64,000 bases of DNA from Actinomycetota bacterium (GTDB lineage Bacteria > Actinomycetota > Actinomycetes > Streptosporangiales > Streptosporangiaceae), in NCBI GenBank assembly GCA_019240215.1, contig JAFAYQ010000020.1:1-64000 (forward strand), written 5' to 3'. Under the pieces are notes generated by a model. It saw only the letters and a program-made list of their open reading frames with translations, did no database searches and was not told the origin of the DNA. The translations under genes and the position numbers were made by a program. This document shows positions 24,784 through 31,114 of this stretch, piece after piece; the first letter of the stretch is position 1, and each line of letters opens with the position of its first letter.

Positions 24784-24833
24784 TGTCACCGGTAGGCGAT
24801 AACGTCAGTGGTTTGAGTCCGGGGGAGGAGAAC

Positions 24834-26048
24834 GTGACCGACGACGGCCTGGTCCAGCAGGGGCTCGATGATCTGGCGGGCGAGGCAGCCGTGCTGCGGG
24901 TCTACCGGCAGGCGTTCGCGGTGCTGGCCCGCGAGGCCGAGAAGATGATCCTGTCCCCGCAGCTGCTGGACGTGGACGAGGCGATCTTGTCCGCGTTCGC
25001 CGCCTCCGGCAGCGACGGGCTGACCGAGGAACAGGTCCGCAACGCCTGCCGGGCGTTCCCGGAGCCGACCGTCAGCCGCCGGTTCGAGGTGCTCAAGGGC
25101 TACGGCGCCGTCACCAAGGTGTTCGAGCGGCCCAACGAGCGCTACTACCGGGCCGCCTTCGCGCCCTACATCATGCTGCTGTTCCTGCGCCGCATCGCCG
25201 AGCGCGGCGGCCAGTCCGAGCTTCACCAGCTGCTGTCGCTGGAGCACGAGAGCGTGTCGGCCGCCACCGCCACCGACGCCGACGGCCGCGCCTCGGTCGA
25301 ACGGCTCACCCAGGTGTTCCGGCTCATCGCCAACGAGCTGTCGATCATGTCGCTCGGCGCCGACGTCGTCCAGCTGCGGGAGAACGCCCAGCTCCTGTGG
25401 GGCAACGAGGCGCTCATCAGGCGGGCCGAGAAGGTGCACGCGACCGTGCTGGAGCGCTGGCCGTCGCTCGACCGCGAGTGCCAGTGGCTGCGGGCCGGGC
25501 TGGCCGCCTACCGGGACGCGATCGACGCCGCTGCCGCCCGCCTGATCGAGCGGGCCGGTACGACCCGGGCGCTGGGTCTGCTGCCGGCCGAGGAGTGGCG
25601 CACGTTCGCCCGCACCGCCGACACCGAGCGGCTCGGCGCGGTGCTGGACGGGTTCGTGTTCGACGCCCCCGCCCCCTGGTTCGACCCTCAGGTGATGACC
25701 GAGGCGGTCGAGACCGGCGGCCGCCCCGACACCGCCCGGATGCCGCCCCCGCGCCCGGTCGGCGACGCTGATCCGACCGAGACCAGCCCCGCCACCGACC
25801 AGGACACGATCCGCGCCACCGTCGAAGACCTGCTCGCCACCCGAGACTTCGTGGAGGTCAACGAGGTGCTGCGGATGGCTCCCGACTGGGCGGCCGCCCG
25901 CCGCCTGCTCGCCCAGCTGACCGCCGCCCACCACGACCCGGCCCTGCCCTACGCCCTGACCTGGGCCGAGGGTCTGGACGTGGCCGAGGCCGCCAGCCCC
26001 GCCTGGGTCACCCCCGGCCGCCTCACCCGCACCGAGACCCAGCCATGA
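24834..26048 (+). CDS. SMC-associated operon gene 1: winged-helix/helical protein, candidate kleisin-type (JetA/MksF-like) subunit
   Basis: GTG start after gggggaggag; wHTH-like LTEEQVRNACRAFPEPTVSRRFEVLKGYGAVTKVFER; 4-nt overlap with gene 2; co-directional with SMC-like gene. Confidence 0.55.
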   Translation: MTDDGLVQQGLDDLAGEAAVLRVYRQAFAVLAREAEKMILSPQLLDVDEAILSAFAASGSDGLTEEQVRNACRAFPEPTVSRRFEVLKGYGAVTKVFERPNERYYRAAFAPYIMLLFLRRIAERGGQSELHQLLSLEHESVSAATATDADGRASVERLTQVFRLIANELSIMSLGADVVQLRENAQLLWGNEALIRRAEKVHATVLERWPSLDRECQWLRAGLAAYRDAIDAAAARLIERAGTTRALGLLPAEEWRTFARTADTERLGAVLDGFVFDAPAPWFDPQVMTEAVETGGRPDTARMPPPRPVGDADPTETSPATDQDTIRATVEDLLATRDFVEVNEVLRMAPDWAAARRLLAQLTAAHHDPALPYALTWAEGLDVAEAASPAWVTPGRLTRTETQP

Positions 26049-26599
26049 CCGGCCCCGACGAGACCGCGCTGGCCTGGGCGCGGGCCCGGGCCGGCGGCCC
26101 GCTCCGGGTCCCGGTCGGTACCCCCGCCCCGGCCGGCATGCTGCGCCTGCCGGAACCGTCCGGCGACGGCGCCTGGCTGGTGCCGCAGGTGCCGGAGACC
26201 GCCGACGCCCGCGTGCTGGCCGAGATGGGCCTGGCCGGCCCGCTGCTGGAACAGCCCAACGACACCGCCCGGCTGCTGGCCGCGGTGCTGCGCTGCTGCT
26301 GGCCGGACCCGCTGGCCCCGATCTGGCCGGGCGTGACCGCCGGGTCGGCGCCCGTGCTGGCCGTGTTCGGCGAGCTGACCGGCCCCCGCGATGAGATGGC
26401 GCACCGGCGCTCGGCGGTCGCCGCCCTGCGCCGCCTGGACCAGGCCGGCTGGCTGCTGTGGGACGAGACGGCCGACACCATCCGGCTCGGGCCCCGGGTC
26501 GCGCTCTGGAGCGGCAGCGACCTGAGCACCCTCCGCCAGCTCTGGCGCACCATGCCCGGCCCGCAGCCGGCCCCGCCGGCCCCGGAGGCCGCCCCATGA
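26045..26599 (+). CDS. SMC-associated operon gene 2: small winged-helix-like protein
   Basis: ATGA overlaps on both sides; AVAALRRLDQAGWLLWDETADTIRLGPRVALW wing-like segment. Confidence 0.55.
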   Translation: MTGPDETALAWARARAGGPLRVPVGTPAPAGMLRLPEPSGDGAWLVPQVPETADARVLAEMGLAGPLLEQPNDTARLLAAVLRCCWPDPLAPIWPGVTAGSAPVLAVFGELTGPRDEMAHRRSAVAALRRLDQAGWLLWDETADTIRLGPRVALWSGSDLSTLRQLWRTMPGPQPAPPAPEAAP

Positions 26600-27261
26600 C
26601 CTCGATCTTCGAACCGGTCCTGGCCGACCTGGGGGAGCGGCAGCGGGACGAGATCCTGGCCGCGTTCGCCGCCGTCGAGCACAGCCCCGAACCGGTGCCG
26701 GAAGCGGTCGCGGCCGGCCTGCGAGACGCAACGTTGCGTCGCAGCGTGGCCGAGATGCTCCACCTGATCGGCCGGACCCTGGTCCGGGCCGGCCCCGGCC
26801 AGTGGACGTCCGGCTACCGCGACGACGTGGCCGAACGGCTGACCGCCGACGGTGGCAACCCGCTGCCGCTGGCCGACCGGGCGGTGCTCACGCTGGTGCT
26901 GATCCACTCGGTGGCGATCCCGCGCACCGAGGGCACGCTGTCCGGCGACTCCTGGGTGGACGGCACCCCGACCCCGATCGAGGAACTGCAGCGCCGCACC
27001 CAGCTGCCCCGCGGCGAGCTGCGGCAGAGCCTCGGCCGGCTGCGGGCGGCCGGCCTGGTCCGGGTGGTGCCGGCCCGGCTGCGGCCCGGGACCGTCCCGC
27101 AGAACACCGCCTACCTGCCCGGGCCGCAGTTCCACCGGCTGACCGAGACCGCCCGGCGCCGCCTGCAGGAGGAGCTGATCCTGGCGGCCGGGCCGGACAC
27201 CCCGCTGGCGGCCGCGATCCGCCGCCGCCGGGCCCCCGCCGCTGAGAAGGAGACATCGTGA
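26596..27261 (+). CDS. SMC-associated operon gene 3: winged-helix protein, candidate KITE-type (JetB/MksE-like) subunit
   Basis: TPIEELQRRTQLPRGELRQSLGRLRAAGLVRVVPARLRPG winged HTH; GTGA overlap with the SMC-like gene. Confidence 0.55.
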   Translation: MTSIFEPVLADLGERQRDEILAAFAAVEHSPEPVPEAVAAGLRDATLRRSVAEMLHLIGRTLVRAGPGQWTSGYRDDVAERLTADGGNPLPLADRAVLTLVLIHSVAIPRTEGTLSGDSWVDGTPTPIEELQRRTQLPRGELRQSLGRLRAAGLVRVVPARLRPGTVPQNTAYLPGPQFHRLTETARRRLQEELILAAGPDTPLAAAIRRRRAPAAEKETS

Positions 27262-30200
27262 CCGAGGACGCCCCCCGCTTCAGCGGCGACGGGCCCGCGA
27301 CCAGCCCCGGCGACAGCACCGACGTGGTGGGCGGCCGGGTGCTGACCGGCATCCAGCTGATCAACATCTCCCGGCTGTCCGCGCACCCGGTCCCGATGGT
27401 CTCCGGCGGCCTGGTCACCGTGGCCGGGCAGGGCCCCAAGGACTCCAACGGGGCCGGCAAGTCCTCGTTCATCGCCGGCATCAGCCTGCTGTCCGGCGAC
27501 GAGCAGTGGCGCTGGAGCAGCGGCGCCCCGGACGCGGCCGAGCTGCTGTTCACCGCCGAGATCGCCGCCGCCGACGGGCGCTGGGGCAACGCCGACCACG
27601 GCTACGTGATCGGCGTGTTCACCGAGCACGGGGCGGCCACCCCGGAGGCGCTGGCGACCTCGGCCCTGACCGTGTGGCTGCGGATCAACCGCAAGGCCCC
27701 CTACATCGACCTGCGCTGGGCCGGCGAGCTGTACGTGCCCGCCGCCGCCAGCGACGCCGACCGGGTGGCGGCCGCCGACGGGATGTGGGCCGAGCTGCCC
27801 CGCCGCAACGGCCGTCACGACATCCACGCCAACCGGCTGGGCGAGGTCCTCTACGGGCGGCACGTGCGCTGCGTGTCGTTCCTGTCCACCTCGGTGCGGG
27901 CCAGCGCCACCGCCAACCTGCTGGCCCAGCCGCTGAACGAGCTCAGCCCGGCCCGGATCTTCGACGCGATCGCCGCTCTGACCGGCGTCGACCGGGAGAT
28001 GGAACAGGAACGGGCGTCCCGCACCACCGAGCACGCCCGGCGCGAGGAGGAACAGCGGGCCCGGGCCGACCTGGAGCAGTGGGAGGGCGAGACCCGCATC
28101 ATCGAGGCCGGCATCGCCCAGCGGGCCGGGGCCCGGGCTGCGATCGAGCGGGCCGGTGCCCTCTGGCAGGGCCGCTGCGCCCGGCTGGTGGTCGACGGCG
28201 AGCACGAGCTGGCCAGCCTCGGCAGCGAGATCAGCCGCCTGGCGGCCGAGTGGGAGGAACGGGCGGCCGAGGCCGGCCGGCTGCGCGAGCAGCTCCGCGA
28301 CCTGCAGAACGACGAGGCGTTCCAGAGCTACTGCACCGCCGCCGAACGTAAGTGGAAGGAGATGTCGGAGCGCGACCGGGCCCTCGAGGTCGAGGAACGG
28401 ACCACCGTCCGCGACGTCGAGGACAAGACCCGCCAGCGCACCGCTCTGCTTGAAGAGGCCCGGGCGGCCGACGGCCGCGACCCGGCCCAGGCCGCTGCCG
28501 AGGAGAACGCCGCCAACACCAGGCTGGAGGAGGCGCTGCAGGCCTGCGGCGCCCGCCAGCACGAGCTGACCGACGCCGCGGGTGCCCTGGCCGGCGCCGA
28601 GCAGGGCGACGACCTGGCCGCCGGCCAGCTGCAGCGGCTGCGCGCGGCCGGCCTGCGGGCGGTCCCGCTGCTGGACAGCGTGGTGCTCGAGCCCGACCAG
28701 CGGCCCGCCTGGGAGCCACGCCTGCACCCCTACCGCGAAGCGGTGGTGGTCCCCGCCGCCGACGCCGCCCAGGCCCGCGACCTGCTGGCCGGCCTGCCGG
28801 GCTCGACCCTGGTCCTGGCCGACCCCGCCGCCTCCCAAAAATCACGCGCCTCAAAAACCACCAAAACCTCCTCTACCACAGCCCCGCCAGCCCCGCCAGC
28901 GAGCGGCCTGCCCGCCAGCAGCGTCGAGGACCTGCCGGTCGCCGGCTTCCTGGCCAGTCTGGCCGAGCGGGCGGGCGACCCGGCCGAGGCGACCGACACC
29001 GCCGCCCGGGTCTGGGTCGCGGGCGGGTTCGCCAGCCCGCTGACCGGCCACGCGGCCCGGGTCGAAAAGGCCCGCGACCGCGTCAACTCCGCCACCGCCC
29101 GCCTGCGCGAGGCCGAGGAATCCGTCCAGCACGCCCGCAGCCAGCTCACGGTCGCCCGCGCCCGGGTTACCGCTGCCGGTGCCGCCCAGCGGGCCGAAGC
29201 CCTGTGGGAGGACATCGGCGGCCTGCGCGAGAGCCTCGGCGACCTGGCCGCCCAGCGAGCCGAGCTGGAGCCGGCCGTGCGCGCCGCCCGCCAGCAGCAC
29301 GCCGAGATGCTGGCCGCCGTGCAGACCCGCACCCAGCAGGCCGAGCGGTTGCGGGCCGACGCCGACCGGCTCGAGGACCGGCAGCAGCGCAACGCCACCG
29401 CCCGGGCCGACCTCACCACCCGGCAGGCCGCGATCGACCTGCCGGCCCGGCTGACCGCGTTCGGCGGCCGCGCCGACGAGGCCCGCGCCCACCTGCTGGC
29501 GCTGCCCGGCGACGAGGGCCGCTGGAGCGAGCAGGAGTGGACCTCGACCTGCTGCGCCGAGCTCGACGACGTACTGACCCGCTGCTTCCCGCGCGGCACG
29601 CCCGAGGACGAGATCCCCCGCGAGATCGCCGGGCTGCGGTCCGACGTGCGCTGGAGCCGCGGTCTGGCCGGTCAGGGCGAGGCGTTCCCGGTGCTGCACC
29701 GGTCGCTGCGCACCTACCTGGCCCAGACCGAGCAGGAGGACGAGTACCAGCGGCAGCGGATCACCCGCCAGCGGGCCGAGCGCAGTGCCGACCTGGAGGC
29801 GGCCCGCAAGGGCCTGCGCGAGGCCGCCCAGGCGGCCGCCGCCCACCGCGCCTCGGTCGCCGAGGGCATCAAGGCCAAGCTCAAGAAGGTCGCGACCCAG
29901 TTCGACCGGCTCGACCAGGAGTACGGCGGCTACGGGGCGACGCTCGACTTCCCCGAGCCGGAGCCGCCCGCCGAGCCCGACAAGCCGTGGCGCTGGACCG
30001 TCACCCCCAAGTGGCGGCGGGCCGAGGGCCAGCGGATGTCGCCGTACAACCTGCGCGGCAACACCGCCCAGATGGACGAGAAGGCGGTCAAGCTGGTGTG
30101 CGCGGCCGCGCTGGCGGGCGGCACCGACCGGCCGCTGCTGCTGGTCCTCGACGAGCTCGGCCGCAACCTCGGCAAGCAGCACCGCACCGAGGCGGTGGCG

Positions 30201-30515
30201 CTGTTCGAGCGGATCGGCCGGGACCGCAACATCACCGTGATCGGGGCGCTCCAGGACGACATGGAGCGCTACGCGATCGACGCCTCAGGGCTGTACGTGA
30301 AGCTGCGCCGCAGCTCCGACGCCAGCCCCTACAACTCGGCCCCGATCGTCACCGGCCACGACGACAACCAGGCGCGGCTGGCCCTGCTGCGCGACTGGCT
30401 GGCGGGCCACTACCCGCCGCTGCTGTCGGCCGGCTCCGGCGAGGACCCCTCGGACCCCTCCGGCTCCTCGGAGTCGTCGCTGGGCGCGCCGACCAGCAGC
30501 GGGGTCATGGTGTAG
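27258..30515 (+). CDS. SMC/MukB/JetC-like coiled-coil ATPase
   Basis: Walker A GPKDSNGAGKSS near the N-terminus, long Glu/Ala/Arg-rich coiled-coil arms, central globular region, C-terminal Walker B RPLLLVLDELGRNL. Confidence 0.8.
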   Translation: MTEDAPRFSGDGPATSPGDSTDVVGGRVLTGIQLINISRLSAHPVPMVSGGLVTVAGQGPKDSNGAGKSSFIAGISLLSGDEQWRWSSGAPDAAELLFTAEIAAADGRWGNADHGYVIGVFTEHGAATPEALATSALTVWLRINRKAPYIDLRWAGELYVPAAASDADRVAAADGMWAELPRRNGRHDIHANRLGEVLYGRHVRCVSFLSTSVRASATANLLAQPLNELSPARIFDAIAALTGVDREMEQERASRTTEHARREEEQRARADLEQWEGETRIIEAGIAQRAGARAAIERAGALWQGRCARLVVDGEHELASLGSEISRLAAEWEERAAEAGRLREQLRDLQNDEAFQSYCTAAERKWKEMSERDRALEVEERTTVRDVEDKTRQRTALLEEARAADGRDPAQAAAEENAANTRLEEALQACGARQHELTDAAGALAGAEQGDDLAAGQLQRLRAAGLRAVPLLDSVVLEPDQRPAWEPRLHPYREAVVVPAADAAQARDLLAGLPGSTLVLADPAASQKSRASKTTKTSSTTAPPAPPASGLPASSVEDLPVAGFLASLAERAGDPAEATDTAARVWVAGGFASPLTGHAARVEKARDRVNSATARLREAEESVQHARSQLTVARARVTAAGAAQRAEALWEDIGGLRESLGDLAAQRAELEPAVRAARQQHAEMLAAVQTRTQQAERLRADADRLEDRQQRNATARADLTTRQAAIDLPARLTAFGGRADEARAHLLALPGDEGRWSEQEWTSTCCAELDDVLTRCFPRGTPEDEIPREIAGLRSDVRWSRGLAGQGEAFPVLHRSLRTYLAQTEQEDEYQRQRITRQRAERSADLEAARKGLREAAQAAAAHRASVAEGIKAKLKKVATQFDRLDQEYGGYGATLDFPEPEPPAEPDKPWRWTVTPKWRRAEGQRMSPYNLRGNTAQMDEKAVKLVCAAALAGGTDRPLLLVLDELGRNLGKQHRTEAVALFERIGRDRNITVIGALQDDMERYAIDASGLYVKLRRSSDASPYNSAPIVTGHDDNQARLALLRDWLAGHYPPLLSAGSGEDPSDPSGSSESSLGAPTSSGVMV

Positions 30516-31114
30516 AGCTTGTCCAGGCCGAGCTGCTGGGCGTCGGCCGACACCACGCTCTCCTGCTTCTGTGCCTTCTCGGCGGTCTGCTTGGCCAGCT
30601 CGGAGGCGAGCGCTCCGAGCTGGCGGACGCCGGCCCCGTCGACCAGGATGTGGCTGGCCGACAGCACGGTGACGCCCCGCACCTCGCGGTCGCCCTGCTC
30701 GGGGTCGGCCAGCACCGCGCCCACCCGGGCCTCCAGGAACGGGTTGGTGGGGTGGCGGCCGAGGATGTTGCGCTCGTTCTCCAGCCACTCGTGGAACTTC
30801 AGCACCTGGCCTTCGAGCGGCAGCGCCTTCACGTCGTCCAGGGTCAGCCCGAACTTCTTGCCCTTGGCGAACGACCGGTCGTAGGCGGTCAGCGCGGCCG
30901 ACCAGAGCGCCTGCGGGATCACCGGGTCCCGCTCTGCTTCCGGGCTGGACAGCTCCGACAGCAGGCGTTTGCAGCACTCCATGACGAACTGCAGGTCCTG
31001 AATGGTGGCGATCTGGTCGGCCAGCACCTGTGCCGAAGGCAGCTCCAGTCCCACGGTCAGTGTCTGCTCACCCGGGTGCTGCGCGTCCTGAGCCTGTTCG
31101 TCCGTCATAGACAC
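30410..31114 (-). CDS. Hypothetical protein with HEPN-like R-N-x4-H motif
   Basis: LWSAALTAYDRSFAKGKKFGL...VLKFHEWLENERNILGRHPTNPFLEARVGAVL; 3' end overlaps the SMC-like gene by 106 bp. Confidence 0.65.
   Translation of the reverse strand: MSMTDEQAQDAQHPGEQTLTVGLELPSAQVLADQIATIQDLQFVMECCKRLLSELSSPEAERDPVIPQALWSAALTAYDRSFAKGKKFGLTLDDVKALPLEGQVLKFHEWLENERNILGRHPTNPFLEARVGAVLADPEQGDREVRGVTVLSASHILVDGAGVRQLGALASELAKQTAEKAQKQESVVSADAQQLGLDKLYTMTPLLVGAPSDDSEEPEGSEGSSPEPADSSGG

Follow-up and report, generated by a model that had tools for sequence, protein, structure and literature searches.

Within a 64,000-nucleotide stretch of DNA from an actinomycete of the Streptosporangiaceae (contig JAFAYQ010000020.1, positions 1 to 64,000; hereafter the window), we analyzed a four-gene operon at positions 24834-30515 and found that it encodes an SMC–kleisin complex of the Wadjet/MksBEF class, although not a Wadjet by definition, because the nuclease JetD is absent. 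The operon belongs to a clan of related operons, here called A, and we judge it probable, at roughly 60%, that the A-clan operon works in chromosome upkeep as an additional MksBEF-like condensin without a nuclease, its sister, in a second clan, B, being a defence system. A chromosomal role is favoured by the lack of an adjoining DNA-cutting enzyme in the A clan, together with an inheritance that runs parallel to that of the canonical SMC. In the complex as we picture it, gene 4 would provide the SMC ATPase, gene 1 the kleisin, and genes 2 and 3 together a split KITE module, with JetD missing. The operon is laid out as follows (aa, amino acids).

24824-24830, plus strand: Shine-Dalgarno-like GGAGGAG, read from the sequence, a few bases 5′ of gene 1
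24834-26048, plus strand: gene 1, predicted kleisin (MukF/JetA-like; AlphaFold2 model and Foldseek), 404 aa, GTG start
26045-26599, plus strand: gene 2, putative KITE-like winged-helix subunit (alignments and fold of a fused homologue), 184 aa
26596-27261, plus strand: gene 3, putative KITE-like tandem winged-helix subunit (alignments, fused-homologue model and fold matches), 221 aa
27258-30515, plus strand: gene 4, SMC/JetC-like coiled-coil ABC ATPase (alignment and profile–profile match to JetC type I), 1085 aa

Two clans of related operons

Gene 1, when searched across 201 genomes of the window's order, gave matches in 93, of which 87 represented an A-type operon, this set comprising the window's own genome and relatives at about 45-52% identity. 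A few genomes of the order had a divergent B type (25-28% identity), in one case beside an A-type operon, and a scan of GTDB contigs with the SMC of that type brought up 42 loci in Actinomycetota, distributed sporadically over Streptomyces, Nocardia, Amycolatopsis, Nocardiopsis and others. In an unrooted tree of genes 1, 3 and 4 the two types were split with 100% support, the branch between them measuring 1.1 substitutions per site, and the window formed the deepest branch within A. Genes 1 and 4 were present in 34/34 A-type loci read and gene 3 in 33/34, genes 2 and 3 being fused in some of these. An earlier reading of the window, made from its sequence alone (the sequence-only reading), had described four co-directional genes of 404, 184, 221 and 1085 aa joined by 4-nt overlaps (ATGA/ATGA/GTGA in the list of open reading frames, ORFs); these ORFs were confirmed, all on the plus strand, and the set recurs in the A-type relatives. 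In one A-type genome (G192, locus L037, 8359-9278) a deletion or a change of frame interrupts the gene for the gene 2–gene 3 product.

A phylum-wide search with a gene 3 profile gave, besides the window, two convincing matches only, both in one other family (f50); the remaining matches looked like generic winged helices and were set aside. Phage records held no match to the operon, and the lone match among plasmid records was discarded, as this Nonomuraea gerenzanensis record is, at 11.85 Mb, a chromosome.

JetD beside the B clan and not beside the A clan

A JetD-type TOPRIM nuclease gene directly adjoined the operon in 37/37 distinct intact B-type loci, its frame lying no more than 14 bp from that of gene 1 or gene 4 and being placed as first gene, as last gene or convergently. 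In profile comparison the B-clan JetD matched JetD of type I (P=97.8%) and of type II (P=94.9%); it also matched MksG (8b7f, E=0.005), and the neighbour of the Nocardiopsis B-type operons was recognized through JetD_C (E=6e-18, L048) or DUF2399 (E=1.5e-5, L049). By contrast, neither JetD_C nor DUF2399 was found within 20 kb of the A operon in any of the 87 A-type genomes or in the 34 loci read, and the window has no JetD or other recognized nuclease gene beside the operon. Within the same genome sample, JetD was linked to 6/6 B-type vs 0/87 A-type loci (Fisher p=1.3e-9, which overstates independence, the loci being related by descent). The sequence-only reading had seen no JetD/MksG homologue alongside the operon, and this proved right for the window and the A clan but not for the wider family.

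Because JetD adjoins every intact B-type locus, the B clan looks like an undescribed Wadjet type and is, by analogy, most likely a Wadjet-type anti-plasmid defence. The JetD of Wadjet cuts small circles (PMC10586767), and that of the B clan would do so in the same fashion. The clan matched no described Wadjet type by the models used (for type III, PADLOC profiles only) and is a candidate type that the PADLOC models used had missed; a fourth Wadjet type was not found in the open literature searched, although it may be described elsewhere. In the three Nocardiopsis loci (L047-L049) the B-type SMC operon stands convergent with JetD-GajB-GajA, a Wadjet-like system and Gabija thus lying side by side in 3/3 genomes (PADLOC E=3e-188 for GajB and 4e-195 for GajA). 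In the chromosome record of Streptomyces cyaneochromogenes, B-type copies (L074, L098) lie about 26 kb in from either end, which agrees with a reported terminal enrichment of Wadjet in Streptomyces chromosomes (PMC10482375).

The A operon could still act against plasmids or phages if a nuclease were supplied in trans, either as JetD-II from a Wadjet-II elsewhere in the genome or as neighbouring SbcCD, and we regard this as unlikely. It would accord with the defence-like nature of the sister clan, with the occurrence of JetD-II (DUF2399) somewhere in 42/87 A-type genomes, and with sbcC/sbcD, encoding a nuclease complex, being near the operon in 25/34 genomes, on either side (within the 10-20 kb read, counted by hand). 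However, 41/87 A-type genomes had neither JetD_C nor DUF2399 detected anywhere, the A operon occurred independently of any DUF2399 gene at another site of the genome (42/87 vs 58/114, Fisher p=0.78), sbcCD was not seen where the window's contig was read, and the operon is inherited in step with the canonical SMC (see below). A neighbourhood survey, as proposed in the sequence-only reading, yielded the presence or absence of JetD as a divide between the clans and sbcCD as a frequent neighbour; no other conserved partner genes of the A operon were found beyond shared chromosomal neighbours. The window's genome has one more JetABC operon, Wadjet-II in type, on contig C18 (L144, 7766-14951; DUF2397, DUF2398 and an SbcC_Walker_B protein), with no JetD gene adjoining it within the stretch read.

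Inheritance and selection of the A operon

The operon and the canonical SMC were compared in 13 A-type genomes, the window's genome being left out because no canonical SMC was recovered there. The two trees had 7/10 splits in common (label-permutation mean 0.35, maximum 4 in 5000), and the pairwise identities correlated with r=0.96, with a mean of 0.73 in both. Canonical SMC scored above the cut-off in 16/16 near-complete genomes tested, 14 of them A-type, and the A operon, with no linked JetD, in this respect matches MksBEF, a nuclease-free accessory condensin beside canonical SMC. Ratios of nonsynonymous to synonymous substitution rates (dN/dS) of 0.11-0.43 in the close pairs tested show the A operon to be under purifying selection.

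A decaying, functionless remnant of a JetD-bearing system is therefore a strongly disfavoured account of the A clan. The absence of JetD and the broken gene in genome G192 would fit such decay, but the gene set is kept in 33/34 loci, selection is purifying as just given, and the ATPase motifs are invariant.

Predicted subunits of the complex

The family libraries (Pfam, NCBIfam and PADLOC) left genes 1-3 without a confident name, and the matches to gene 4 were weak, those in PADLOC being to JetC2 (E=7e-6) and LmuB (E=0.005). Wadjet types I and II were compared by profiles and PADLOC, and type III by PADLOC models only. Gene 4 matched JetC type I in profile–profile comparison (P=96%, a score to which the coiled coils contribute), while for genes 1-3 neither JetA nor JetB of type I or type II was matched significantly, the best pair, gene 1 with type I JetA, falling short of significance (P=16%, E=0.0016). 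None of the window proteins had a significant sequence match to MksB, MksE or MksF in the Pfam, NCBIfam and PDB searches. As PDB sequence-profile searches with genes 1, 2 and 3 returned nothing meaningful, fold comparison was needed for these three.

Gene 4 is a coiled-coil ABC ATPase with Walker A and Walker B motifs, and the Walker A, coiled-coil arms and Walker B ascribed to it earlier are all present, with motif core residues invariant in 13 sequences. Its features are the following.

27432-27467, plus strand: Walker A GPKDSNGAGKSS, core residues invariant in 13 aligned sequences
28638-29117, plus strand: central region between the coiled-coil arms, a candidate hinge judged from an alignable stretch, limits approximate
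30060-30083, plus strand: ABC signature-like motif NTAQMDEK (from alignment; NGAQVKVF in Nocardiopsis B-type)
30129-30158, plus strand: Walker B RPLLLVLDEL, DELG invariant in 13 aligned sequences

Gene 1, as modelled, is the kleisin subunit. Its AlphaFold2 model (mean predicted local distance difference test score, pLDDT, of 61, a low confidence) places a winged helix at each terminus and, between them in this order, a helical region and a disordered linker, and Foldseek gave MukF 9gm7_C as the best match (E=3.1e-5), with 3euh and JetA 8q72_E/8as8_E also listed.

Genes 2 and 3 are likely KITE-like, to judge from modelling of relatives. In many of these the two genes form one natural fusion of about 405 aa, gene 2 aligning with its N-terminal half and gene 3 with its C-terminal half. 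A model of a fused homologue (pLDDT 81) had two winged helices in the gene 3 half and matched ScpB 2z99 best (E=5e-3, prob 1.0), JetB of Neobacillus vireti Wadjet-II (9qe0_D, its identity as JetB having been checked) across the whole length, and further MukE and Nse1-Nse3 (7dg2_A, E=0.14). The two small winged-helix subunits of the sequence-only reading are retained as likely KITE-like but refined, in that together they resemble one Wadjet-II JetB fold. The idea of a plain Wadjet-II JetB gained no sequence-level support from profile comparison, the likeness being at the fold level only; one set of gene 2 and gene 3 profile comparisons, in which both sides contained natural fusions, was left out of the evidence.

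The Wadjet/MksBEF-like layout of SMC, kleisin and winged-helix subunits recognized earlier was upheld by fold matches of gene 1 to MukF/JetA and, more weakly, of the fused genes 2 and 3 to ScpB/MukE/JetB-II, and by the JetC profile match of gene 4. Two outcomes had been named that would speak against that reading, namely genes 1-3 structurally unlike kleisin and KITE subunits, or a close match to a described Wadjet or Lamassu subtype; the fold matches bearing on the first are those just given, modest for the KITE-like pair, and no such subtype was found by PADLOC or the type I/II profiles.

All four ORFs showed periodicity in the GC content of third codon positions. An alternative start of gene 1 at ATG 24756 would give 430 aa, whereas the starts of homologues point to 24834. 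On the minus strand, a 234-aa ORF at 30410-31114 of the window, with no Pfam match, runs antisense into gene 4 and shares about 106 bp with its 3′ end.

Proposed mechanism and its weighing

The ATPase dimer would be closed by the kleisin and winged-helix subunits, and the closed complex, if it resembles MukBEF, MksBEF and Wadjet in this, may capture DNA and extrude loops. In the A clan, loop extrusion would help to organize or segregate the chromosome or to handle it in connection with repair, perhaps together with SbcCD, without plasmid cutting. Precedents exist on both sides, as MksBEF of P. aeruginosa acts in chromosome organization and segregation (PMC7485682) and MksBEFG of C. glutamicum, having a nuclease, controls plasmids with no chromosomal effect (PMC7083940). 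The sequence-only reading had left the choice between anti-plasmid or anti-phage activity and chromosome maintenance; its two halves now fall to different clans, with maintenance favoured for A, whose inheritance parallels canonical SMC, and defence for the sister clan.

Several points weigh against a chromosomal role of the A operon or the assignments beneath it. The operon is not universal, occurring in 87/201 genomes; the inheritance test covers 13 genomes and one comparison gene, with the window's genome outside it for want of a recovered canonical SMC; and vertical inheritance alone is no proof of a housekeeping role. JetD genes elsewhere in some A-type genomes could supply a nuclease in trans, and contig C4 of the window's own genome (67% complete) opens with a DUF2399 fragment. 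The gene 1 model, besides its pLDDT of 61, gave low template-modelling scores, and the fold matches for the KITE module are weak (best E=5e-3).

Plasmids or phages might also be silenced without cutting, through compaction of small circles or a transcription block, as has been proposed for eukaryotic Smc5/6. We consider this improbable for the A operon: two distinct KITE-like subunits recall Nse1-Nse3, and the sister clan would target plasmids, but the Nse1-Nse3 match is weak and vertical inheritance fits housekeeping better.

The A clan may have lost JetD, as we suppose, or the B clan may have gained it. We tentatively entertain, at somewhat less than even odds, that a JetD-bearing, undescribed Wadjet type with a split or fused KITE pair, spread over Actinomycetota, lost its nuclease in one bacterial family and there gave rise to a condensin of the chromosome that is passed on vertically; what had been defence would then have turned into a housekeeping machine. 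This touches the open question of how one SMC motor takes care of the chromosome in one setting and destroys DNA in another. Within one phylum, homologous complexes occur both as a sporadic, defence-like form that has JetD and as a vertically inherited form that lacks it and tracks canonical SMC, which allows a direct comparison and makes subunit swaps possible.

Comparison with known systems

Lamassu resembles the window operon in its SMC-like protein, gene 4 having weak PADLOC matches to LmuB, but the window operon has kleisin and KITE-like genes and no match to the LmuA effector, and does not fit Lamassu. With MukBEF it shares the predicted kleisin fold of gene 1 (MukF 9gm7_C, E=3.1e-5) and MukE among the KITE matches; it differs in phylum and gene set, in standing beside canonical SMC, in having two KITE-like genes and in showing no significant sequence match. 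As in Wadjet (JetABCD) types I-III, an SMC, a kleisin and a (here putative) KITE module lie in one operon, to which the B clan adds the JetD TOPRIM nuclease that defines Wadjet. Unlike these types, the window operon has only weak PADLOC matches, lacks significant type I/II JetA or JetB profile matches for genes 1-3, splits its KITE module over two genes and belongs to a clan without JetD. MksBEF, which occurs both with and without the nuclease MksG, differs in that the KITE-like pair of the window type is split or fused and in the missing sequence-level match to MksB, MksE or MksF in Pfam, NCBIfam and PDB, but it is alike in being an accessory condensin beside canonical SMC, and its MksG (8b7f) is matched by the JetD of the B clan.
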